The notes under the pieces were generated by a model. That model did no database searches. It was not told the origin of the DNA and was given only the letters and a program-made list of their open reading frames with translations. Shown here one piece after another: positions 3,182 through 15,726 of a stretch of DNA of 64,000 bases. The DNA is from Alteromonadaceae bacterium (GTDB lineage: Bacteria; Pseudomonadota; Gammaproteobacteria; Enterobacterales; Alteromonadaceae), in assembly GCA_013373625.1 (NCBI GenBank), contig JABXHM010000003.1, forward strand, positions 186,001-250,000, read 5' to 3'. Position 1 is the first letter of the stretch, and each line of letters starts with the position of its first letter. A program made the translations under genes and the position numbers.

Positions 3182-3925
3182 CTATTGAATAATATTACTA
3201 TATCCGTTCATAGCAGTAATATTTTCGCCTTCAAAATTTACTGCCATGCACTGAAAATTGAGGGTATTGAATACCTGACAAACCCGTCTCGTTGCTGTTT
3301 CGGTTTCAAAAGCGCCTACCCTCAGGCTATACAATGTTTGCCCTCCTTGCTGCTGCGTGAACACTTTTGCCTGAACTGTCTCTACTAGTGCCGGGAACTG
3401 CCGGGTAATTCTCTTCCAGCCCTGATTGGCTGCAGATAAACTCATGAAGTAAGCAAGATGAGCGGCATAGAATTGCCGTTCAGGCACCTGGTTATCTTCT
3501 TGGCCGGGCATCGGCATGCCACTTTCAGATGACTCTTCGCCAGATTCATCCTCCTGTTGTGACACCGAAGCATCACTGTCAAATAGCTCATCGTACAGAT
3601 AATCATCTTCTTCCGCCTCAATGTGATCAACCTGGCGTTCACCAGCATATTGCGGTGGCAGATTATTCAGGTCGGCTTGCATGTCCACTTCAGCTAAAAT
3701 AATGGCAAGATCCTCTTTCAGCGCAGTCAACTCTGTGAGTTGAGGCTTAACCTGCTGCCATTCTTTAATAAATGCCGTAACTTCTTCAGTTGTCATGGGT
3801 TCCTGCATCGCGGTGCGTTGTGGCCCAGTGGTCGAACAGCCATGTAGTCCCAATGCCGCACATGCAAAAAGACTCAGAACAATCAGTGATCGGCCCCTGC
3901 AATAGTACATGGGAGTAAGTAACAT
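3182..3925 (-). CDS. SPOR-type lipoprotein 1 of the usher locus
   Basis: This 247-residue protein has a lipoprotein signal ending in the lipobox LHGC, an acidic Ser/Glu-rich linker (about 100-145) and a C-terminal SPOR-like domain (about 150-235) with the typical LRVGAF segment. SPOR domains bind denuded peptidoglycan, so the protein probably links the outer membrane to the wall. C216 and C226 form a Cys-X9-Cys pair that recurs in the lipoprotein at 5326-6048 and at the end of the usher. The ATG at 3925 has an AGGA ribosome binding site, and a second ATG at 3910 has none. It is divergent from the FlgO-like genes. Its function is inferred only from domain and context. Confidence 0.75.
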   Translation of the reverse strand: MLLTPMYYCRGRSLIVLSLFACAALGLHGCSTTGPQRTAMQEPMTTEEVTAFIKEWQQVKPQLTELTALKEDLAIILAEVDMQADLNNLPPQYAGERQVDHIEAEEDDYLYDELFDSDASVSQQEDESGEESSESGMPMPGQEDNQVPERQFYAAHLAYFMSLSAANQGWKRITRQFPALVETVQAKVFTQQQGGQTLYSLRVGAFETETATRRVCQVFNTLNFQCMAVNFEGENITAMNGYSNIIQ

Positions 3926-4079
3926 TTAAGACAGTTCCTGTAAAAATTTTGACTATTTATAAGTACATCTCTGCTTATCGCTACGCAAGATATACGCCAC
4001 TTTAAAATATATATGGCATGCTTTCTGCTATTCTTACTAATATTAACAATGCGTGTCACTAACTGCTATAGGTTCGATA
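3926..4079. promoter_or_regulatory. Divergent promoter region, SPOR lipoprotein 1 and FlgO-like pair
   Basis: An AT-rich spacer of about 150 bp separates two divergent transcription units, so promoters for both must lie here or overlap it. The run around 4005-4016 is very A/T-rich and suits a -10 region. I could not fix a unique -35/-10 pair. Confidence 0.4.
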
Positions 4080-4694
4080 ATGAATATAAAGCTGGTGCTT
4101 TTGATGCTTGCAGTTGCACTGCAAAGCTGCAGTCTTACAGACAATAAAGGGGATAGCTCACCGGCTAACAACTCCGCACACTTATATCAGCCGGGCACCA
4201 TGCAACATTCCCAAGACCGACATTTGGCACAAAATATACAAGGCTATGCCAAATTAATGGTCGATGATATGGCCATCAACATGCGCAACCTGGATCCCGA
4301 AGCCAAAATTGCCGTCACGACATTTGTACGGATTGATTCAGATCTCACGCAAACCTCAGCACTGAGTTTAGAGCTTGCCGAAGCGTTTATGTCAGAGTTA
4401 CATCGTTTTGGTTTGACAACTGTTGATTTTAAAGCAGCAGACTACATTCGTGTTACTGACAACGGCGACTTTGTAATGACCCGTGATTATCTGGAACTCA
4501 AAGAGAATATATCTGCAAGCTATGCGCTACTGGGTACCTATTTGGTTCAGCATAATGGTATCAGTGTTCACGCCCGTATCGTAGAACTCTCATCGCAAAC
4601 CGTACTGGCAACCGGCGAAACCACAATACCGCCAGAATATTTGCGATATGTCTCTCGCAACCCAAGAAAAAGTGGATCCCACTATGAGAGTTAA
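4080..4694 (+). CDS. FlgO-family outer-membrane lipoprotein 1
   Basis: This is a 204-residue protein from the ATG at 4080. That start gives a short lipoprotein signal with lipobox LQSC; an in-frame GTG at 4053 would add nine unlikely residues. Residues from about 65 on match the FlgO fold, with segments such as IAVTTFVRID, LAEAFMSELHRFG and YALLGTYLVQ. FlgO of Vibrio is an outer-membrane protein needed for a stable flagellum, but no flagellar gene is present here. It is a tandem paralogue of the next gene and overlaps it by 11 bp, suggesting translational coupling. Confidence 0.75.
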   Translation: MNIKLVLLMLAVALQSCSLTDNKGDSSPANNSAHLYQPGTMQHSQDRHLAQNIQGYAKLMVDDMAINMRNLDPEAKIAVTTFVRIDSDLTQTSALSLELAEAFMSELHRFGLTTVDFKAADYIRVTDNGDFVMTRDYLELKENISASYALLGTYLVQHNGISVHARIVELSSQTVLATGETTIPPEYLRYVSRNPRKSGSHYES

Positions 4695-5322
4695 TCCCAA
4701 TTTTAAACGTCTACCCAGTGTCGTCTTATTAACTCTGGCTATGGCAGGCTGCCAAAGTTCAGACCAAAGCGCTGACCAGAGCAAAACAGAAGATGCGGTG
4801 CTGAGTATTCTTACCAGTGAGCAAGCATCCCCTGCGGCAAATAACACATCGCCAGCACGTGATTATTCGGTATATACACCTATGCATCACAACAAAGTGT
4901 TGTCTGACTACGCCGAGCAGATTGTCATGCAATTAAAGCTTCAGGGCCAGTTTGACAAGCCCATCGCCGTGGCGTCTTACGTTGAATTTGATAACAACCT
5001 GAAGACCACTAACGGGCTAGGCAACCAGCTTGCGGAAGCAGTACTCATTGAGATGTCAAACATGGGCTACCCTATGATGGACATTACCACCAGCAATTCA
5101 ATTCTGATGAACGACAGTGGTAGCTTCGCGTTTAACCGTGATTCGAGCAAATTTGCTGATGACATTTGTTGTGTGCTAAGTGGCAATCTTATCTACGAGC
5201 GTCGCGGGGTTAAAGTTAATACCAAACTTTTGGAGTTACAGTCAAAGCGGGTATTGGCCTCTAATAGCCAGCTAATTCCCTATTTTATTGCTGAAGAATT
5301 TGGTCGGCTCAGAGCGCGGTAA
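4684..5322 (+). CDS. FlgO-family outer-membrane lipoprotein 2
   Basis: This 212-residue paralogue of the upstream gene has lipobox LAMAGC. The core motifs (IAVASYVEFD, LAEAVLIEMSNMG, CVLSGNLIYE) align segment by segment with those of its neighbour. The ATG at 4684 lies inside the end of the preceding gene; an in-frame ATG at 4648 would place 12 extra residues before the signal peptide. The gene ends only 3 bp from the convergent stop of the next SPOR lipoprotein, with no room for a terminator. A role with the usher locus is inferred from position. Confidence 0.75.
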   Translation: MRVNPNFKRLPSVVLLTLAMAGCQSSDQSADQSKTEDAVLSILTSEQASPAANNTSPARDYSVYTPMHHNKVLSDYAEQIVMQLKLQGQFDKPIAVASYVEFDNNLKTTNGLGNQLAEAVLIEMSNMGYPMMDITTSNSILMNDSGSFAFNRDSSKFADDICCVLSGNLIYERRGVKVNTKLLELQSKRVLASNSQLIPYFIAEEFGRLRAR

Positions 5323-5325
5323 TAC

Positions 5326-6048
5326 TTAGTCGGTTAGTGCCTGCTCTGACCCGTCATATTGCGTCACAATACAAACCCGTTGTAATGCTCTGATTTGCCG
5401 GCACATCTCATCAGCGCCCTCACGCGTTGCGAAAAGACCCGTTTTCAATCTGAATATTGCGTTACCGTTCACCATAACTTGTTGATAACGAGGTATCTTA
5501 GCGGAAAATATCGCTGGTGCTTGAGTGGCGAGTTGTTGCCACAACACCACCAGGGTTTGTTTTTCTCCCATCGCGGCCAATTGCACACCATATTGACCTG
5601 AAATGGTCTCTGTCGTGTCGCTCCCCGTGTCACTGTCGGTATTATCCTCAGACACTGAATTAGCCGCCATATTGCTGCCGGGCTTCTGCACCTGGGCCAT
5701 TTTGGGTGGGATTGGCGCAGAGCCGGTCTGCACCGGTTTATTGCTGCCAGTACTGGCAGACTCTGACGACTCAGCCAACGCATTCAATTGCGAGATCAGC
5801 ACTTTAAACTCGTCTTCCAGCACCAACAGACGCTCTACGCCGTCTTGATTTGCCCGCCACGCATTAATCGCTTCTTTATGTTGCGGATAGTTCGCCAGCA
5901 AGGTTCTTATTGCCAGGCGCTCTTCAGCGGTTAGCGGTGGAACGGCCGAATCAGCTTTAGGCGCCTGATGACTCGCCGGTTGGTTGGCGCATCCACTCAA
6001 CATGGCAATCAGGACAAGTCCAATTACTGTGAAATACTGTGTCTTCAT
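5326..6048 (-). CDS. SPOR-type lipoprotein 2 of the usher locus
   Basis: A 240-residue lipoprotein (lipobox LSGC) with the same plan as the one at 3182-3925: a helical segment with TAEERLAIRTLL (about 40-95), a low-complexity Ser/Asp/Thr linker (about 95-145) and a SPOR-like C-terminal domain (about 150-230). The Cys-X9-Cys pair is C216/C226. The start ATG at 6048 has a good AGGA site and lies 7 bp after the usher stop codon, so it is the last gene of the pilin-chaperone-usher unit. It probably binds peptidoglycan near the usher. Its exact role is unknown. Confidence 0.78.
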   Translation of the reverse strand: MKTQYFTVIGLVLIAMLSGCANQPASHQAPKADSAVPPLTAEERLAIRTLLANYPQHKEAINAWRANQDGVERLLVLEDEFKVLISQLNALAESSESASTGSNKPVQTGSAPIPPKMAQVQKPGSNMAANSVSEDNTDSDTGSDTTETISGQYGVQLAAMGEKQTLVVLWQQLATQAPAIFSAKIPRYQQVMVNGNAIFRLKTGLFATREGADEMCRQIRALQRVCIVTQYDGSEQALTD

Positions 6049-6055
6049 TGTTATC

Positions 6056-9000
6056 CTAATAGTTAAACTCTACTGTATTCACGTTACAAGCTACGTTCTT
6101 CGCTCGCATTAGCTTACAAACTTCCACCATACTGGCTTTGTCTTGCTCGCTCTGTCTTTCCTGATAGTCGATACCCAATACATATTTACCCGACTCCGCA
6201 ACGTAATAAAACGCATTGCTGAGTAAATCTGAATCAAGACGTCGGTCCAGTAGTTTGAGATAAAGCCTGAGCATGGATAATGAAGAAAACTCTCCTGCCA
6301 CTGCAACAAAACCATCGGCCGACATTAACTCTCGCAAGGTCATATCGACACCGGTAATTAAATCACCTTTATTCGACACGGTCACACTTTTAAAACGTTC
6401 AGGTGTCATGCCGCGCTGTCGGCCGCTGGACGTATCAACTTCTATAGCATAAGTGCCGGGCATAATTTTTGTAAACAGATAATAGCCATCAAACTCGGTG
6501 CGCGTGGTTGCTACCACGTCTCCATTTTGATTAACCATGTTCATTCTTACGTAAGGCGCAATTTGCTCCTCATTGTTTTCGTTACGCCAGTACAATGTGC
6601 CATCCAATTCGCCGGCTCTGACTACCGGAATATCAAATTGCTGAATACTTCCGCGCCGACTGGCCACAGCAAAGCCATCGGTAGCAACAGTCATACTCGG
6701 ATGTGTAAATGTCGATTCATCAACGATAATATCGGTACGTCTGTTAGCGGGCAGTGATTTAAGTACCGCCAGTCCCTGCTCATTGGTTTTTTCATCTCTG
6801 AAGGCTTGCGCGGCGCTCACTTCTACGTTTTCTAACGTTGGCTCACCCTCATTAAACGTACCATCGAGATTTTCGTCTTCAAACATGCGCAGCACTACAG
6901 CCCCCGATTGTGACAGGGCGCGGCCCGACGTAAACAGGGTGTCGGTAGCAGCGTCGTAACCTAACCCAAACCGAAGGACCAGATTAATACTCCAGTCCTG
7001 TCCTTCTGCATAGTTGGCAATACCACTAAGAGATACATTGTCACCTAACCAGTTTAAGCGAAGATCATAGCGTGAACGCTCTGAAGCTACGTCATAGGTA
7101 TAACGTAATTCCGAGGTAAGCTTATTCGTAATGGGGTAATTAAGTGAGGTGCCTACGGAATTAAACCGGGTATCCGGATCGATTTCATATTCACCAAAGA
7201 CACGCGTAAAGACGGGCCCGAAACGATTACGATAAGCCAGTGAGCCAAGCGTCGACTCAACGGACATTGCACTATTTGCTTCTGTCACAGGCAGCGTATC
7301 CTTTTGCCACAGAACACCATGTGAAAACGAACCAAAAGAGGAGTTAATGCCCAATGAGTTCTGGAACTGCTGGTTTACACCGCCACTGGGCAGCTCTGAA
7401 CGAGACCACACATTTTGGTAGCTAAGAGGCGTACCAGAACTGGCAAATAAGGTACCGGTAAATCGTAAGTTAACATCTTGGGTGACTAGCTGGTTGACCT
7501 CCGAACGCTCAAGCAATAGTTCATCAAGCAGTTCACTTCTGCGGTAGGTGGCATCAATACTCACACCAGCCACCTGCGTACGGAATGAATGGAGCATGGC
7601 ACGGCGCTCATCATTTTCAAGCTGGAAAATACTATTGATTAACCCGAAACGGCCCAGTACCAGATTGGAACGCAGCGCAACACTTTCAACCTTGTCCCCT
7701 TCTTCCGGGGCAAAGTATGAACCACCAACCCCAAATGATAGCCAATCGGTTACACCGTAATCGTAGGATAAGCTTACTAATGGTCCAAGGCGGGTAGGAT
7801 CATCAGTAAAGTCTCCCACACCTAATACCGACTCATTACTTTGCACTGCCGAGAACTGCACTAAACTCTCGCCTTGCTCTGCAATATTGGAGTCAACATA
7901 ATACGATTCCTGGCGCCGCTCTATTTGCCCTTGCGGACCATAAAAAACAAATTCAAAATCGTTTTGTCCATATCCGAGCTCTACGTCGTTAAATTCGTAG
8001 CGCCCCTCAGCAACGCTGGTGCGGTTGTCAATAAGCACACCATTTCTATACAACTCAATGTCCCAGCCTACCTGAATTTCGCCGACCAGGTTAACCCGGC
8101 GGTTATCGACAATTCCATAGCGAGCATTGCTCATTCTGAAGCCTCGTCCCTGTGCTTGTGTTGCTCCGGCGCCGATGTTCACAGGTGTAACATCGCCAAA
8201 CGCATACTCAGTCATTTTTAGAGGGCCAAGCAGGTCAGCGTTATTAGAATGTCGTGATAAGCTGAGGCGCGCGTCCACCAAACCACTGTTATCATTTCCT
8301 GACAAAAAGACCTGACTGGAAAAATAACCAGCGTCCTGACTGGACAAAAGAGAGTATGACGAATCAGTATTCGATTCATTAATCCGGGCAGAAGCCTGAA
8401 CATCCAGTAACGGGGTAGAAAGCAATTTGTAGCCATTTTCTTTAACTGGCAGCACTGACTTTGAAAAAGACGTATCTTTGTCGAAACGCTTTCTCTGTCT
8501 GGCCAAGCGCTTTTCGATAGGGAAAGGCTGATCTGAATTCACCACAATATTTAATTGCCCTTCGTCAAAAAGCGCGGACACGCCAAACCATTGCTCTAAA
8601 TCGGTCAGCTCAATGTAGATATCGTCCTGAATATCGTAGCGGGAGGAAGGTATGGTAAAAAGCTCGGAGCCAGCCATAACCGTCAATGACTCATCTGGCT
8701 GTTGCTGCAAGGCAAAGCTATTCTGCTGTGCTATAAACCACCCTGAAGCGGTGGCTTCTTCGGGATCTACATCTATGGCAAAATCGACCAGTTGCGCAAA
8801 CTCCAGAAGGCCGATCCGATAGCCACCGGGACTGCGTATAGCATACAGATCACCGAGAAATAAATCGCCAAGTTGCAATGAGAAAATAAGTTCTTCGCCC
8901 ACAGCAAAGCGGCTCTCGAAGATATCTGGCGAGGCGCTTTCTGTCTGTTCGCTCGCAGTTGTTGTCAGCGTGTTATCATGTGACGACTGACGTGCTTGCT

Positions 9001-9292
9001 GAGGTTCAGGTGTAAATAGGGAATCGGGGGTAGCCTTAGGTTGCAAGGCTTCGTCTTGAGTTTGCAAGGGCGCGGTGGCTGCGTTAGCTTTTTCAGTTTG
9101 AGTAGTTGCAGGGGCCTGATCCTGCTCCTGATAAATGGTGTTAATACGTTTGATGGTTTGCTTAATATCTGCCGGCAACACAGTTTGTGCGCCTACCGGA
9201 GAAATAACTACAACTGCAGTTACTACGACAGCACCCAGTAACCTGCTTGTTACTGGTATCGTTAATCGCAAGGACAACCGAAGTATATTCAA
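6056..9292 (-). CDS. Non-canonical outer-membrane usher with C-terminal SPOR-like domain
   Basis: A 1078-residue secreted protein. The signal peptide ends near residue 35, followed by a Gln/Thr-rich linker (about 40-115). A stalk-like N-terminal domain (about 125-260) comes next, then a long beta-barrel region (about 300-785) that starts with usher-like text (ELYRNGVLIDN, GRYEFNDVELGYGQND). After it come an SdrB-like segment (about 795-860, DENLDGTFNEGEP), a carboxypeptidase-regulatory-like domain (about 905-970) and a SPOR-like tail (995-1078) with C1059 and C1069. Classical PapC ushers are about 800-850 residues and have no such tail. It would secrete and assemble the DUF4402 subunits. The only possible starts are TTG codons (9292, 9277, 9271) without a visible ribosome binding site, so the exact start is uncertain. 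Confidence 0.75.
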   Translation of the reverse strand: MNILRLSLRLTIPVTSRLLGAVVVTAVVVISPVGAQTVLPADIKQTIKRINTIYQEQDQAPATTQTEKANAATAPLQTQDEALQPKATPDSLFTPEPQQARQSSHDNTLTTTASEQTESASPDIFESRFAVGEELIFSLQLGDLFLGDLYAIRSPGGYRIGLLEFAQLVDFAIDVDPEEATASGWFIAQQNSFALQQQPDESLTVMAGSELFTIPSSRYDIQDDIYIELTDLEQWFGVSALFDEGQLNIVVNSDQPFPIEKRLARQRKRFDKDTSFSKSVLPVKENGYKLLSTPLLDVQASARINESNTDSSYSLLSSQDAGYFSSQVFLSGNDNSGLVDARLSLSRHSNNADLLGPLKMTEYAFGDVTPVNIGAGATQAQGRGFRMSNARYGIVDNRRVNLVGEIQVGWDIELYRNGVLIDNRTSVAEGRYEFNDVELGYGQNDFEFVFYGPQGQIERRQESYYVDSNIAEQGESLVQFSAVQSNESVLGVGDFTDDPTRLGPLVSLSYDYGVTDWLSFGVGGSYFAPEEGDKVESVALRSNLVLGRFGLINSIFQLENDERRAMLHSFRTQVAGVSIDATYRRSELLDELLLERSEVNQLVTQDVNLRFTGTLFASSGTPLSYQNVWSRSELPSGGVNQQFQNSLGINSSFGSFSHGVLWQKDTLPVTEANSAMSVESTLGSLAYRNRFGPVFTRVFGEYEIDPDTRFNSVGTSLNYPITNKLTSELRYTYDVASERSRYDLRLNWLGDNVSLSGIANYAEGQDWSINLVLRFGLGYDAATDTLFTSGRALSQSGAVVLRMFEDENLDGTFNEGEPTLENVEVSAAQAFRDEKTNEQGLAVLKSLPANRRTDIIVDESTFTHPSMTVATDGFAVASRRGSIQQFDIPVVRAGELDGTLYWRNENNEEQIAPYVRMNMVNQNGDVVATTRTEFDGYYLFTKIMPGTYAIEVDTSSGRQRGMTPERFKSVTVSNKGDLITGVDMTLRELMSADGFVAVAGEFSSLSMLRLYLKLLDRRLDSDLLSNAFYYVAESGKYVLGIDYQERQSEQDKASMVEVCKLMRAKNVACNVNTVEFNY

Positions 9293-9321
9293 AGTTATTC
9301 AGTTACATGAGCGCAAAGATG

Positions 9322-10164
9322 TTATTGCGATATTACATCAATATCTGATTTTTTAAATCTAACAGTTTCATCAATATATACTTTGTCCTGAAAGTCTCTG
9401 ACCCCCTCATAAACAATCCGCAATTGACCATCCTGAGGCTCAAAGTCGGCTTTTGCCCAAACCAATTGCGTGTTAACTTCATCAAGTTCCGCCCAAAAAT
9501 TGAAGTCAGCCCGTTTGGCAATCAGTTTTTCTTTGCCACCATCTGGTGTCCAGAAAGCAGAAATATCACCACTGGAAGAATGTAACCCCTGCCTGGACAT
9601 CCTGACCGAAACTGAACCACTCTCTTTATCTGGATAATAAGCCAAGGTGGTCTCTTCCAGCGCTACCGTGCTGTCGTAATTACCCTGTTGCACTGATACC
9701 GGCACAGCGAAGCTAACGGTCATATTGATTTGCATTGACGTACCTGCTTTTTTACGCTCTTCGTCTTTCGGGTTTGGTAATGCTTTAAACAGTAAGTGCG
9801 AGCGGTATTCACCGGCCGCCAGATCGCGTGGGCGTCGTAACGCTACCTTAATCGTCTGTCTCTCGCCCGGTTTAAGGGTGACCTGACGTGGCGCAAATCT
9901 GAGCATAGGACTCGCTAAGGGTAACCCGCCGGCGTCTTCTTTTTTGACCACCTCATAGCCGCCGTCCGGCAAGGCAATATTCTCTCTCCAGCTTAATCTG
10001 TAGGTGTTGGTTGTTTGCGAGGTATTGGTGAGTGACAACTCGGCCGTGCGCTCTGTGTCGTCAAATGAGACCCGCACCGGATAAATCAATAAATTCGCCG
10101 CGGTATCAAACGCTGCGAAGAGCATTAATACCAGGAAAAAAGGAAGTGTTGTTATTTTTTTCAT
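9322..10164 (-). CDS. PapD-like periplasmic pilus chaperone
   Basis: A 280-residue protein with a cleavable signal peptide and two immunoglobulin-like halves typical of fimbrial chaperones. The first half has LLIYPVRVSFDD, then LTNTSQ, then FAPRQVTLKPGERQTIKVALRRP, a standard PapD-family stretch. It should hold pilin subunits in the periplasm and deliver them to the usher that follows 29 bp downstream. The ATG at 10164 has a strong ribosome binding site (GAAGGAACAACA); the longer frame to 10191 would overlap the preceding gene. The C-terminal half is longer than in classical PapD and has an aromatic-rich FNFWAELDEV. Confidence 0.85.
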   Translation of the reverse strand: MKKITTLPFFLVLMLFAAFDTAANLLIYPVRVSFDDTERTAELSLTNTSQTTNTYRLSWRENIALPDGGYEVVKKEDAGGLPLASPMLRFAPRQVTLKPGERQTIKVALRRPRDLAAGEYRSHLLFKALPNPKDEERKKAGTSMQINMTVSFAVPVSVQQGNYDSTVALEETTLAYYPDKESGSVSVRMSRQGLHSSSGDISAFWTPDGGKEKLIAKRADFNFWAELDEVNTQLVWAKADFEPQDGQLRIVYEGVRDFQDKVYIDETVRFKKSDIDVISQ

Positions 10165-10174
10165 TGTTGTTCCT

Positions 10175-10645
10175 TCAATAACTAATATCAATTGCCAAGT
10201 CTATATTATAGGACGCAGGACTAATATATGTCCCCCCCAGACCTGATGTTTCAAGCACACCACCAATAGTAAACTGCGCGATACCTGCCTGACCGGTATT
10301 CACTGACGATGGCATATCAACGGCTCGTAAAATAAATTGCTGTGTACCGGGGATGGTTGAAGATGAATATGCAGGCACATTAGCAGAGAAATTAATGACT
10401 GTATAAGGCGGCATATCGGTAAGAGAGTATACGCCTGGCGTTCCCAATTCTATAATGTAGATGTTATTCGTTGCGCTTGCCCGGCCTGAGCGTGACATTT
10501 GTATACTGCTCACGGAGCTGTTGTTAGTCACCGCTATTTTACCGAAACTAAAAGCGTTGTCTGTCAATAACTCGCCACATACAGGAAAGCATAAAAACAG
10601 TCCAAATAAACTTATCCAGCTTGTGCGATTGTTACCTAACCACAT
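10175..10645 (-). CDS. DUF4402-like minor pilin or tip subunit
   Basis: A 156-residue secreted protein. It has a signal peptide, the sequence FSFGKIAVTNNSSV at the mature N-terminus, a central YSLTDMPPYTV, FTIGGVLETS and a final strand LAIDISY ending in tyrosine. This matches the DUF4402 beta-sandwich pattern and resembles the larger protein upstream. A terminal strand of alternating hydrophobic residues is what a pilus chaperone would recognise. The ATG at 10645 has no clear ribosome binding site and sits 11 nt after a strong hairpin, so it should be made in smaller amounts than the major subunit. Its role as a minor or tip subunit is inferred. Confidence 0.65.
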   Translation of the reverse strand: MWLGNNRTSWISLFGLFLCFPVCGELLTDNAFSFGKIAVTNNSSVSSIQMSRSGRASATNNIYIIELGTPGVYSLTDMPPYTVINFSANVPAYSSSTIPGTQQFILRAVDMPSSVNTGQAGIAQFTIGGVLETSGLGGTYISPASYNIDLAIDISY

Positions 10646-10656
10646 AATATAACAGA

Positions 10657-10692
10657 CTAAACGAATGATGCTTTACAGCATACATCGTTTAG
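10657..10692 (-). terminator. Stem-loop between the two pilin-like genes (attenuator)
   Basis: The arms CTAAACGA and TCGTTTAG pair perfectly, and the inner arms extend the stem to 15-16 pairs with one or two mismatches around a 4-nt loop. In the pilin mRNA it follows the major subunit stop by 25 nt and is followed by a U-rich but not uniform run. It could terminate most transcripts or stabilise the 3' end of the major pilin message. Confidence 0.7.
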
Positions 10693-10716
10693 CCTGTGTT
10701 TTCACAATTTTAGCTA

Positions 10717-11337
10717 TTAGTAACTCACTGTTACATCAAACTCACCAGCATAGGCTGTATTTTCGTAAGCAAGTGTGGGAGTACCCGGATCTGTAATCAT
10801 CGTCGCACCAACCGTAAAGGCGATGTTGCCAGTACCATCAGCAGTAACAGTAGTGGTTGCCGCACCTGGCGTACCTGAAGACTGATACGCAGTAAAGTCA
10901 ATTAACTGTAAGATCGGCGCGCCTGCAGGAGCAGGGTTAAGCGCTAAATCTGCTGTGGAAGGTAATGTCAGGGTAAGTGCTGTAAAAGGAGCCAGACCTG
11001 CTACTGCAAACTCTGGGCGTGTAGGTGTACCACCAACGTTTTGAATTACCGCTGTACCATCAGCTGTACAAGCAAGCGCACCAGCGGTGCCAAGCGTCGC
11101 ATTCAGGGGTGAAGCCGGGTTTGCTGGCATTGTTAAACCAACACAGTTTACCGCAGCAGATCCATCTGCTGTTGCGCGGATAGTACCAAAATCAAGTGTA
11201 CCGGTTAGGGTAAAGTCAATGGTGTTATCAACCGTTACTGCAACCGGTACTGTTAATGTTTCTGCAGAAACTGAACCGGCCATAGTGGCAATCAACGCAG
11301 CACCCAATACCGATAAATTTTTACTAAATTTTTTCAT
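10717..11337 (-). CDS. DUF4402-family major pilin-like protein
   Basis: A 206-residue secreted protein. The signal peptide is followed by a mature start near AETLTVPVAVTVDN, a LDFGTI segment, two cysteines (NCVG and LACTAD) that can form a disulfide, and a final strand EFDVTVSY. The composition (Ala, Thr, Gly, Pro rich, few charges) is typical of surface pilins. DUF4402 proteins are often found beside fimbrial chaperones, and here the chaperone and usher follow. The ATG at 11337 has an AGGA site. As first gene of the unit and before the hairpin it is probably the abundant structural subunit. Confidence 0.75.
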   Translation of the reverse strand: MKKFSKNLSVLGAALIATMAGSVSAETLTVPVAVTVDNTIDFTLTGTLDFGTIRATADGSAAVNCVGLTMPANPASPLNATLGTAGALACTADGTAVIQNVGGTPTRPEFAVAGLAPFTALTLTLPSTADLALNPAPAGAPILQLIDFTAYQSSGTPGAATTTVTADGTGNIAFTVGATMITDPGTPTLAYENTAYAGEFDVTVSY

Positions 11338-12175: not shown

Positions 12176-14266
12176 ATGTACGTAAAGAAGTTATCTATCA
12201 TCATGCTCGTTGTCAGCTCTGCGATAAGTACTGAAACTCAAAGTAATGACAATGTAGAACATATTGTTATTACCAGTACCCGTGAAGCGAAAGCAACTCT
12301 AGAGTTGTCGGAATCTGTCGGTGTGGTCACTGAACAAATGCTTGCAGACATCGCTCCTGCGCACCCTTCTGAAGCGCTCAACCGCGTTGCTGGTGTTTAC
12401 ATTAATAATTTAGGTGGTGAAGGTCATATGACAGCAATTCGCCAACCACTTAGCACTTCAGGTGTGTATCTGTTTTTGGAGGATGGCATACCAACTCGGC
12501 CAACAGGTTTTTTTAATCATAACGGTTTATACGAAATCAACGTGCCGCAAAGTAGTCGCTTAGAAGTGATTAAAGGGCCGGCTTCTGCTCTTTATGGCAG
12601 TGATGCTATCGGCGGCGTGATAAATAGTATTACAAAGCAACCAACCACTGATTTATTGCTTGGGCTCAATGCTGAAGTAGGCAGTGATGGCTGGCATCGT
12701 GGCTTAGTGTCATGGAGTAATAGTGTTAGTGATAATGCATCTGCCAGAGTTGATTACAACTACACGAAGAGTGATGGTTTTAGAGATGAATCTTCATATG
12801 ACAGACATTCAGTCAATGGTCGATTTGATGCGGATTTGGGTGAAAGCTGGCAAATGGTATTGACTGCTTCACATTCTAATATCGATCAATCCGGTAGCTC
12901 ATCCCTTGAATTTGATGATTATATCAACCAAACAGAAAAAAATTTATATCACGGTGATATAGGGTATCGAGAAGTTAGTGCAAGCCGCATTTCGGCAGAA
13001 TTAAGCTACCAAGTAAGTAGCCGCAGTTTGCTCTCGTTTACGCCATTTTACCGTCAAAATGACTCTAAAATGATGCCAAGTTGGATGATTACTTACGACC
13101 CCAATATTGCTGAAACAGACTTTCAGTCTTTCGGGCTAATGAGCAAATATCGTTATCGCAGCGATTCCGGCAACGTCGAATTTATCGCGGGTATTGATAT
13201 AGACAGTACGCCGGCATCTTATAAAGAGCAACAAATCACGGTAGAGCAACAAGGCGACATTTATACCGACTATAGTGTAACGGAGCAATATAACTATAAC
13301 TATGATGCGACTCAGCAAACCATTTCTCCTTATGTGCATGGTGAGTATCAAATAACACCACAATTAAGAGTCAACGCTGGCGTGCGTTTTGATCGCTTTG
13401 AGGTTGATTATACAAATAATTTGAGCGATGCCACTTTCGATTATGCGCACTTACGGCCGCAAAGCCAAACGATAACCTATGATAATACGAGTCCGAAGCT
13501 AGGTGTGATTTATCAATTCAATGACAATCATAATATGTATGTCAGCTACCGGTATGCTTTTCGTGCTCCAACAGTGGGTAACCTTTTTCGCCCTGGTAGT
13601 TCGCAGGGAAGTACAGAGCTTGAGCCTGTTCAGAGTAAAAGTGCTGAAATAGGTTTTCGCGGTCAAATTGCCGGACAACTTGATTATGAGGTTGCCATAT
13701 ATGATATGAATACAGAAGACGATATTGTTTCAGTGATAGAGGGGGACTCCCGAGTTACAACGAATGCCGGTGAAACTCAGCACAAAGGCATTGAGTTGGG
13801 GCTTGATACGATGCTTGGTAAACAGCTGCAACTTGGGCTTTCTTATACATATACTGACCAAACCTATAAAGACTTTAGTTATGTCTATTTTTCTACCGAC
13901 TGTTTTTGTACACAAGCGCTTAATTTTGCCGGTAACCAAATAGCTAAAGCGCCAGAACATATTGGTAATGCCCGTATCGCGTACTACCCAAACTGGTTGA
14001 CAGGTTTACGTGCAGAGCTTGAGTACAGTTACTTAGGTAGTTATTACACTGACCAAACGAATACGCAGATGGATGATGGCTTTAGCCTGGTAAATTTGCG
14101 ATTTAATTATGATATTAACGATCAGTTTCAAGCCTACTTTCGGGTGATAAATTTAACCGACGAACTTTACTCCTCCTATACATCAAATCAAGTCGGCGAC
14201 CCTGACCTTAGTTATCGTCCTGGGCAGCCACGTCGTTTCTTCCTGGGTTTTAGATATAGCTTGTAA
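12176..14266 (+). CDS. TonB-dependent outer-membrane receptor
   Basis: A 696-residue receptor. A short signal peptide is followed by a TonB-box-like HIVITSTRE, a plug domain (about 40-155) with the hallmark VIKGPASALYGSDAIGGVIN, and a 22-strand-type barrel ending in RRFFLGFRYSL with a terminal aromatic pattern. It imports a scarce ligand, probably a ferric siderophore or haem, using TonB energy. The next gene encodes a PepSY membrane protein, a frequent partner of iron receptors that suggests reductive iron release. The start ATG lacks a clear ribosome binding site. An unusual CFC sits in an extracellular loop near residue 577. GC content is lower than in the flanking housekeeping genes. Confidence 0.9.
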   Translation: MYVKKLSIIMLVVSSAISTETQSNDNVEHIVITSTREAKATLELSESVGVVTEQMLADIAPAHPSEALNRVAGVYINNLGGEGHMTAIRQPLSTSGVYLFLEDGIPTRPTGFFNHNGLYEINVPQSSRLEVIKGPASALYGSDAIGGVINSITKQPTTDLLLGLNAEVGSDGWHRGLVSWSNSVSDNASARVDYNYTKSDGFRDESSYDRHSVNGRFDADLGESWQMVLTASHSNIDQSGSSSLEFDDYINQTEKNLYHGDIGYREVSASRISAELSYQVSSRSLLSFTPFYRQNDSKMMPSWMITYDPNIAETDFQSFGLMSKYRYRSDSGNVEFIAGIDIDSTPASYKEQQITVEQQGDIYTDYSVTEQYNYNYDATQQTISPYVHGEYQITPQLRVNAGVRFDRFEVDYTNNLSDATFDYAHLRPQSQTITYDNTSPKLGVIYQFNDNHNMYVSYRYAFRAPTVGNLFRPGSSQGSTELEPVQSKSAEIGFRGQIAGQLDYEVAIYDMNTEDDIVSVIEGDSRVTTNAGETQHKGIELGLDTMLGKQLQLGLSYTYTDQTYKDFSYVYFSTDCFCTQALNFAGNQIAKAPEHIGNARIAYYPNWLTGLRAELEYSYLGSYYTDQTNTQMDDGFSLVNLRFNYDINDQFQAYFRVINLTDELYSSYTSNQVGDPDLSYRPGQPRRFFLGFRYSL

Positions 14267-14274
14267 GGTAAGTT

Positions 14275-15726
14275 ATGAAACGTTTAATAAATACGTGGCA
14301 CAAGAAGTTGGGATGGTGGGGATTAGCAGCGTTATCGATATGGGTTTTAAGTGGTCTGACTCATCCTATTATGTCTTGGTTTGGACCTCAAACAGCGGCA
14401 TTTTTTGCGCCTAAATTGGTTATTGACCACACTCAGGTGGCTGGCTTCAATGCTTTATTGCGGCAAGCTGAGGTTCATAAAAATGCACAAGTTATAAAAC
14501 TGGTCGCAAATGCAGAGTACGGCGCTTTACTGCAAGTAACCCGATCAGGGCAAACCGAACGAGACTACTATCACTTACAGACACAGCAAAAATTGAACGG
14601 TTTCGACCAAAAACAAGCAAAATGGCTTGCCAGTTATTACAGCGGAGCAGCGCAAACTGACATTGTATCTGTTCGCTTAATTAATGAATTTAATACTGAC
14701 TATCCTTCTGTTAATCGGCTATTGCCTGTCTACCAAGTCGATTTTTCGTCCGGTACACGTGCCTATGTATTCACTGAAACGAATAGTTTGGCAAGTATCA
14801 CCAATGACTTTAAAGAAAATTTAAAGGCGATTTTTATACAGTTGCATACCTTTCAGTGGTTACATAAATTTGAGTTTGGTCGGCTGCTGATCGTAAGTTT
14901 GTTTATGCTGAGTTTACTGGCAATGAGTTTAACGGGCCTCGGTTTAGTTATTGTGCTAAAGCAGCGCAAAATCAAACAAGCTAGTCGTCGTTACCATCGG
15001 TATTTGGCTTACCTGCTTTGGTTACCTTTACTGGGTTGGTCCGCAAGCGGATTTTATCACTTACTATACTCATCACAATCGCAAGAGGTCAGTGGTTTAA
15101 GGCTACAAGAGACAGCTCAGATCGATACAACACAAGGGTTAAATAATGGATGGATTGCACGATATCAAGACTATAATCTAAGCAGCGTCAGTGTGGTAAA
15201 AGATAGGCAAAACCAAGCAGTGTTGCGTATTAGCATTGCACCTAAAACGGATGTGAATGCAAACCGTGAAAGCCGTTTTAAAGGAATGCCTAGTGAAAGT
15301 AAGGCGATATATATTAACCCTTATACGGGTAAAGAGCGTGACGATCTTAATGATAAACAGCAAGCTGAGTTGTTAGCTGAGCGCTTTAGCGGCAGTGATA
15401 CAAGCGCCATCGAGGATATTCAGCTTGTCACACATTATGGGCCTGATTACGATTTTCGAAATAAGCGCTTACCAGTGTGGAACGTAAAAGTGAACAATGA
15501 TAATGCAAGTTGGCTGTTTGTTGATCCAGTCACAGGGGTGCTCGTTGATCAAAGTCGCAATCAAGATAGGTTAGAGCGCTTGTCGTTTTCATTACTGCAC
15601 AAGTGGAACCACCTCACCCCCTTTATAGGTCGAATGTGGCGCGATAGTACTATTGTATTAACCTTATTATTACTCATTTTAATTGCAGGGCTCGGCGCTA
15701 AAATGATGCTTACAAAGCGAAAGTAA
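14275..15726 (+). CDS. PepSY-associated transmembrane protein (iron-uptake type)
   Basis: A 483-residue inner-membrane protein with four predicted helices: about 16-36 (GWWGLAALSIWVLSG), 203-228, 245-265 and 450-473. PepSY-like periplasmic domains lie between them. It starts 8 bp after the TonB receptor with an AAGG ribosome binding site, so the two form one operon. Proteins of this kind are linked to siderophore receptors and some act as ferric-siderophore reductases. The conserved histidine in the first helix region (NTWHKKLGW) would fit such a role. The substrate is unknown. Confidence 0.8.
   Translation: MKRLINTWHKKLGWWGLAALSIWVLSGLTHPIMSWFGPQTAAFFAPKLVIDHTQVAGFNALLRQAEVHKNAQVIKLVANAEYGALLQVTRSGQTERDYYHLQTQQKLNGFDQKQAKWLASYYSGAAQTDIVSVRLINEFNTDYPSVNRLLPVYQVDFSSGTRAYVFTETNSLASITNDFKENLKAIFIQLHTFQWLHKFEFGRLLIVSLFMLSLLAMSLTGLGLVIVLKQRKIKQASRRYHRYLAYLLWLPLLGWSASGFYHLLYSSQSQEVSGLRLQETAQIDTTQGLNNGWIARYQDYNLSSVSVVKDRQNQAVLRISIAPKTDVNANRESRFKGMPSESKAIYINPYTGKERDDLNDKQQAELLAERFSGSDTSAIEDIQLVTHYGPDYDFRNKRLPVWNVKVNNDNASWLFVDPVTGVLVDQSRNQDRLERLSFSLLHKWNHLTPFIGRMWRDSTIVLTLLLLILIAGLGAKMMLTKRK

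Follow-up and report, generated by a model that had tools for sequence, protein, structure and literature searches.

Does the cluster of eight genes at positions 3182-11337 of a 64,000-nucleotide stretch from an Alteromonadaceae bacterium (contig JABXHM010000003.1; the whole stretch is hereafter called the window) encode a surface fiber whose export platform is held to the cell wall? Ushers are regarded as free-standing outer-membrane platforms and, to our knowledge, it is still unsettled how the base of a pilus withstands being pulled. An earlier note on this DNA had proposed a wall-anchored fiber system, comprising two DUF4402-type subunits, a PapD-like chaperone, a 1078-residue usher ending in a SPOR tail, two SPOR lipoproteins and two FlgO-type lipoproteins. 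Taken as a whole, the locus is probably a diverged chaperone-usher machine, likely building a two-subunit surface fiber and likely tethered through SPOR domains to peptidoglycan. The gene cluster itself is real and recurrent, and was found in about twenty genera.

An open reading frame (ORF) and domain check of the window, which lies in a genome of 5.09 Mb, found all eight genes in place. Five of them run consecutively on the minus strand, as had been claimed, in the order sub1, sub2, chaperone, usher and SPOR lipoprotein 1, with spacings of 71, -17, 29 and 7 bases, but the FlgO pair lies on the opposite, plus strand, where it converges with SPOR lipoprotein 1 and is transcribed away from SPOR lipoprotein 2. 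In G051, the closest relative found, the genes stand in this order too, and the two ushers are 83% identical. The features are as follows:

10717-11337, minus strand: sub1, a DUF4402 protein and predicted major pilin-like subunit (Pfam 28.9 bits, cut-off 25.2).
10646-10716, minus strand: stem-loop in the gap between sub1 and sub2 (minimum free energy -25.3, z -6.2 against mononucleotide shuffles).
10175-10645, minus strand: sub2, predicted tip subunit (in-house profiles of both subunit kinds).
9322-10191, minus strand: predicted PapD-like periplasmic chaperone (PapD_N 21.0 bits, slightly below the cut-off of 23).
6056-9292, minus strand: usher of 1078 amino acids, with an N-terminal region, a pore and plug region, two C-terminal domains and a SPOR-like tail (by fold).
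6416-6556, minus strand: C-terminal domain of the usher, Pfam SdrD_B, residues 913-959 (48.0 bits, cut-off 29.7).
6059-6334, minus strand: SPOR-like tail of the usher, residues 987-1078, with Cys1059 and Cys1069 (DSSP, hhalign).
5326-6048, minus strand: SPOR lipoprotein 1, 7 bases after the usher (SPOR 32.4 bits, cut-off 21, residues 151-228; lipobox LSGC, then A).
4648-5322, plus strand: FlgO-family lipoprotein 2 (FlgO 94.6 bits, cut-off 22.6; lipobox MAGC, then Q).
4053-4694, plus strand: FlgO-family lipoprotein 1 (FlgO 127.3 bits, cut-off 22.6; lipobox LQSC, then S).
3182-3925, minus strand: SPOR lipoprotein 2 (SPOR 23.1 bits, cut-off 21, residues 162-229; lipobox LHGC, then S, assigned by eye, the automated rule having chosen an earlier Cys).

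The 1078-residue protein is an usher by fold, though no Pfam usher model matches it. FimD and PapC topped both comparisons with known structures, by a clear margin over porins, and the fold comprises the outer-membrane pore, plug region and C-terminal domains that it has in common with the ushers of classical type 1 (FimD/FimC) and P (PapC/PapD) pili. The locus likewise resembles those pili in its apparently pilin-like subunits and in the chaperone gene beside the usher. Unlike them, it has no detectable sequence relation to FimD and no match to the Pfam usher model PF00577: hhalign gave a probability below 1% for both FimD and EcpC, and PF00577 matched none of the 30 members of our usher alignment at E 0.01, nor the window's usher. 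No PF00577 match and no second usher were found in the window's genome. This usher is thus also without detectable relation to EcpC, the usher of the alternative Ecp system, and in the E. coli ecp stretch, unlike this locus, neither SPOR nor FlgO appears among the gene annotations. The SdrD_B domain was matched in 30/30 alignment members, the window's usher included, and PDB sequence profiles gave nothing useful for usher and subunits except SdrD. Where a source names these ushers, it calls them, in the cases encountered, sporulation, SPOR, SdrD-like, carboxypeptidase-regulatory, SpaA-type, porin or hypothetical protein. Because PF00577 misses all 30 members scanned, surveys based on that model would miss this family.

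The DUF4402 assignment stood for sub1 alone, since sub2 matched no Pfam family on its own; it is grouped with the DUF4402 protein because profiles built from both subunit kinds, with which it scores 133-137 bits, join the two, and this is the sole link. The best Foldseek match of sub1 was CfaB of CFA/I pili. An N-terminal extension was present in the sub1 type only, sub2 having 11 residues ahead of the core motif (mature N-termini were set by a crude signal-peptide rule). This extension carries an alternating strand, as does CsuA/B in an excerpt of PMC4654587, and is the predicted donor strand. Relative to classical pili, the locus adds the SPOR-like usher tail and the SPOR and FlgO lipoprotein genes, its subunits are two and small, and none of the eight genes encodes a long adhesin. 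The profile of the chaperone matched CsuC (E 0.011) and WxLIP (E 0.0036) and, weakly, EcpE and FimC, thereby touching the archaic Csu and alternative Ecp systems; against the archaic Arg anchor of CsuC, as given in the excerpt of PMC4654587, its alignment is offset by two residues. Stem-loops with z below -2 occurred in 21/31 gaps of the sub1/sub2 type versus 75/278 control gaps, and that between sub1 and sub2 in the window is a possible attenuator; L035, the nearest relative, has none at this gap (z 0.2).

The proposal that the usher carries a SPOR tail was borne out. Residues 987-1078, lying past the usual C-terminal domains, are predicted by DSSP to run strand-helix-strand-strand-helix-strand, which is the order of a SPOR domain. 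An excerpt of PMC6895207 describes that domain as an antiparallel sheet with two flanking helices. The profile of the tail aligned with that of the neighboring SPOR lipoproteins at an hhalign probability of 98.1% (E 1.2e-13), whereas the controls gave 0.2% (FlgO), 0.4% (chaperone) and 0.2% (usher C-terminal domain); the tail is SPOR-like both in homology and in strand-helix order. Pfam SPOR itself matched 4/30 ushers, and both lipoproteins score above the cut-off of PF05036. Tail and lipoproteins furthermore have a Cys pair in common, found in 69/69 usher rows and 44/44 lipoprotein rows of the alignments and mutually aligned in hhalign. Among the named loci described below, the motif C-x(8-10)-C stood near the C-terminus of 76/79 ushers and 125/128 SPOR lipoproteins; it was missed in the ushers of L112, L124 and L130, the first and last of which have a wider-spaced pair, and in three SPOR-labelled ORFs (L073, L115 and L134). 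The C-x9-C pair of this locus's SPOR lipoprotein was seen in 0/4 other SPOR domains of the window's genome. By sequence and fold, then, the tail and the lipoproteins are of the same SPOR subtype.

How constant the gene set is was assessed by scanning GTDB genomes with the 30-row usher alignment, which yielded 235 relatives; the best 80 were taken with up to 10 kb of flank at either end and, as L131 lacks an usher ORF, 79 loci were counted, some of them closely related, so that the counts are not independent. Within these flanks a chaperone gene was found in 78/79 loci, at least one subunit gene in 77/79 and two in 74/79, and a SPOR lipoprotein gene in 76/79, in 57/79 as the immediate downstream gene on the same strand. 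The claimed chaperone-usher core is borne out, and we are highly confident of it; the SPOR lipoprotein holds as a near-constant partner that probably belongs to the same machine. By taxon label (22, mostly genera, three of them wider), SPOR was present in 20; the two labels without it are metagenome-assembled genomes (MAGs) of far groups (L124 and L130), and the third SPOR-less locus, L132, is from a gammaproteobacterial MAG. The eight nearer loci (L035-L042) had a SPOR gene in 8/8 and FlgO in 4/8, and the more diverged ushers (L043-L053) a SPOR lipoprotein gene in 0/11 and FlgO in 3/11. Among eight such diverged ushers scanned, those of the FlgO-linked L045, L047 and L048 have Pfam SPOR above cut-off within the usher C-terminus. 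The earlier note had allowed that the locus would be a chance assembly if ushers regularly occurred without SPOR and FlgO among randomly varying neighbors; this does not hold for SPOR and is half true for FlgO, and the recurrence of the gene set in 79 loci, a conserved linkage, is more than chance. At E 1e-10, with the window's own genome counted and diverged ushers included, an usher was found in 24/146 relatives, 33/394 genomes of the order and 11/369 of the class, and the distribution is therefore patchy. The L096 locus is on plasmid pG7 of Gayadomonas joobiniege, and the locus may thus be mobile.

FlgO is the looser partner. Its claimed membership is only partly supported: it is linked within 10 kb in 47/79 loci, 39 of which have three or more FlgO genes, but it was not detected close to the usher in 14/22 labels and is common in usher-negative genomes. 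The 32 loci without it comprise 23 whose flanks both exceed 9.5 kb and nine with a shorter flank. No FlgO gene was detected around the usher in Shewanella (0/5), Marinomonas (0/7), Glaciecola (0/7) or Psychromonas (0/2), some of these having short flanks; one set, in Thalassomonas G071, fell beyond the limit at a distance of about 11 kb and was left uncounted. Placement also varies: FlgO is convergent after the SPOR gene in Alteromonas facilis, Aestuariibacter, Bowmanella, Lacimicrobium and Rheinheimera D18, upstream of the subunits in 4/6 Paraglaciecola, Rheinheimera A13L and two gammaproteobacterial MAGs, downstream in line in Pseudoalteromonas (linked in 30/30), divergent upstream in Alteromonas profundi, and inverted between SPOR and subunit genes in Paraglaciecola arctica. 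The idea that FlgO is an invariable component of the fiber system was rejected, given the usher-less FlgO sets and the labels with none near the usher. We regard its belonging to the machine as possible, though we lean against it.

The strongest rival, to which we give slightly less than an even chance, is a chaperone-usher fimbria with a working SPOR tail and lipoproteins, whose FlgO neighbors are bystanders with a non-flagellar task of their own. FlgO-family matches were found in 51/53 genomes searched, including 23/25 usher-negative ones, and 20/25 usher-negative genomes have three tandem matches. Away from ushers, mnmC stands beside the FlgO set in 9/21 FlgO neighborhoods mapped outside the window, two of them usher-negative (L165 and L166), and other sets have thyA or an MFS gene close by; all this, like the 14 labels, suits bystanders. 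The mnmC-linked sets, of two or three genes, are those of L054, L165, L166, L175-L178, L183 and L184, and no flagellar gene was recognised beside them in their fabB-mnmC-yfcL-type neighborhood. The window's genome itself has four FlgO matches, namely the two of this locus and two more beside mnmC (L054, 8642-10032). Against bystanders speak the retention of linkage in 8/22 labels and in at least six gene orders, its presence in three of the 11 diverged usher loci, and a tree of 194 FlgO rows, many on long branches, in which usher-near rows cluster (16 label changes versus 40.8 when shuffled, 0/500 as low), near-copies contributing to the clustering. The tree suggests that there are three types of paralogue, arranged in a constant order. 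For a genome of 5.1 Mb with two FlgO clusters, we estimate the probability that one falls by chance within about 23 kb of the usher at about 1%, and recurrent linkage therefore means something, though FlgO is not exclusive to the fiber locus.

A flagellar role for the locus pair is not favored. Flagellar flgO was single and beside flgT in 3/3 single-FlgO loci scanned (L167, L170 and L171), with an LPP20-type gene on its other side in two of the three. The locus pair, unlike these, has no flgT match on its contig, the genome's two FlgT matches being on other contigs, and it does not have the setting beside flgT and flgP that marks an H-ring gene; moonlighting flagellar FlgO is accordingly not our choice. 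The pair does have the FlgO domain and lipoprotein type in common with the FlgO of Vibrio, which, according to an excerpt of PMC6504787, belongs to the outer-membrane H ring. The FlgO profile matched solved FlgO (9yfg) at E 7.7e-48, and the idea of a FlgO ring arises because the solved protein has 58 chains per deposited entry, alongside MotY in the same entries. A more ambitious reading would make the locus a fourth, envelope-spanning chaperone-usher class that surveys with usher HMMs have missed, with a degenerate tail docked on peptidoglycan-seated SPOR lipoproteins and a Vibrio-type FlgO ring as collar. We think this unlikely; if true, two unrelated appendages would use one common anchoring part.

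Less probable still is that SPOR is an address label and not a load-bearing tether, directing the usher to peptidoglycan at the septum or new pole, which would place fibers at division sites. As far as an excerpt of PMC6895207 goes, every SPOR protein known has a role in division or morphogenesis, with septal glycan as the ligand; FtsN, DamX, DedD and RlpA, which carry the domain on an envelope-anchored protein as here, are such division or morphogenesis proteins in that text, whereas here it sits on a lipoprotein of a fiber locus. The Gln by which other SPOR domains bind glycan (same excerpt) is kept at its strand 1 position in 28/44 rows of the SPOR lipoproteins (His in 13), which suits an address label. 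It is present, however, in just 2/69 rows of the usher tail and absent from the other 67, and the predicted outer-membrane lipid anchors fit a tether equally well. Because this Gln is frequent in the lipoproteins and rare in the tail, there may be a division of labor, in which the lipoproteins hold the glycan and the usher tail holds the lipoproteins. Finally, that the barrel is some other exporter or surface anchor, with the DUF4402 proteins freely secreted, is highly improbable, for although Pfam and the FimD and EcpC comparisons leave its sequence unplaced, the lead of FimD and PapC over porins, the near-constant chaperone gene and the apparently pilin-like subunits all speak for an usher.

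To summarize, we favor a chaperone-usher class outside the Pfam usher model, in which SPOR is near-constant and FlgO frequent but optional, and whose function is predicted. In such a machine the chaperone would cap sub1 and sub2 in the periplasm. Sub2, having no N-terminal extension, would go first and form the fiber tip, and sub1 would polymerise behind it, donating its N-terminal strand to the preceding subunit, as the fiber is exported through the usher pore. The two predicted outer-membrane SPOR lipoproteins would grip peptidoglycan and contact the usher via its SPOR-like tail, thereby fixing the platform to the wall and allowing the fiber to bear load; we consider this peptidoglycan tether somewhat more plausible than its absence. 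The FlgO lipoproteins would be a non-obligatory addition at the outer membrane, which might take the form of an oligomeric collar.

Beside the fiber locus, positions 12176-15726 of the window hold two ORFs which, by the look of the translations, we take to be TonB-dependent receptor-like and, next in order, a membrane ORF of PepSY type. A pattern scan gave 11 promoter-like sites versus 14.9 expected and 16 terminator-like sites versus 8.4, a result that was not used. Among the best matches in open-access PMC we found no description of this usher-SPOR-FlgO fiber arrangement, though one could exist, and no paper on DUF4402 was found there. Wall anchoring could be tested directly in this usher family, which has its SPOR-like tail built in and SPOR lipoproteins dedicated to it, and, if the reading is true, the role of SPOR would extend past division and morphogenesis.

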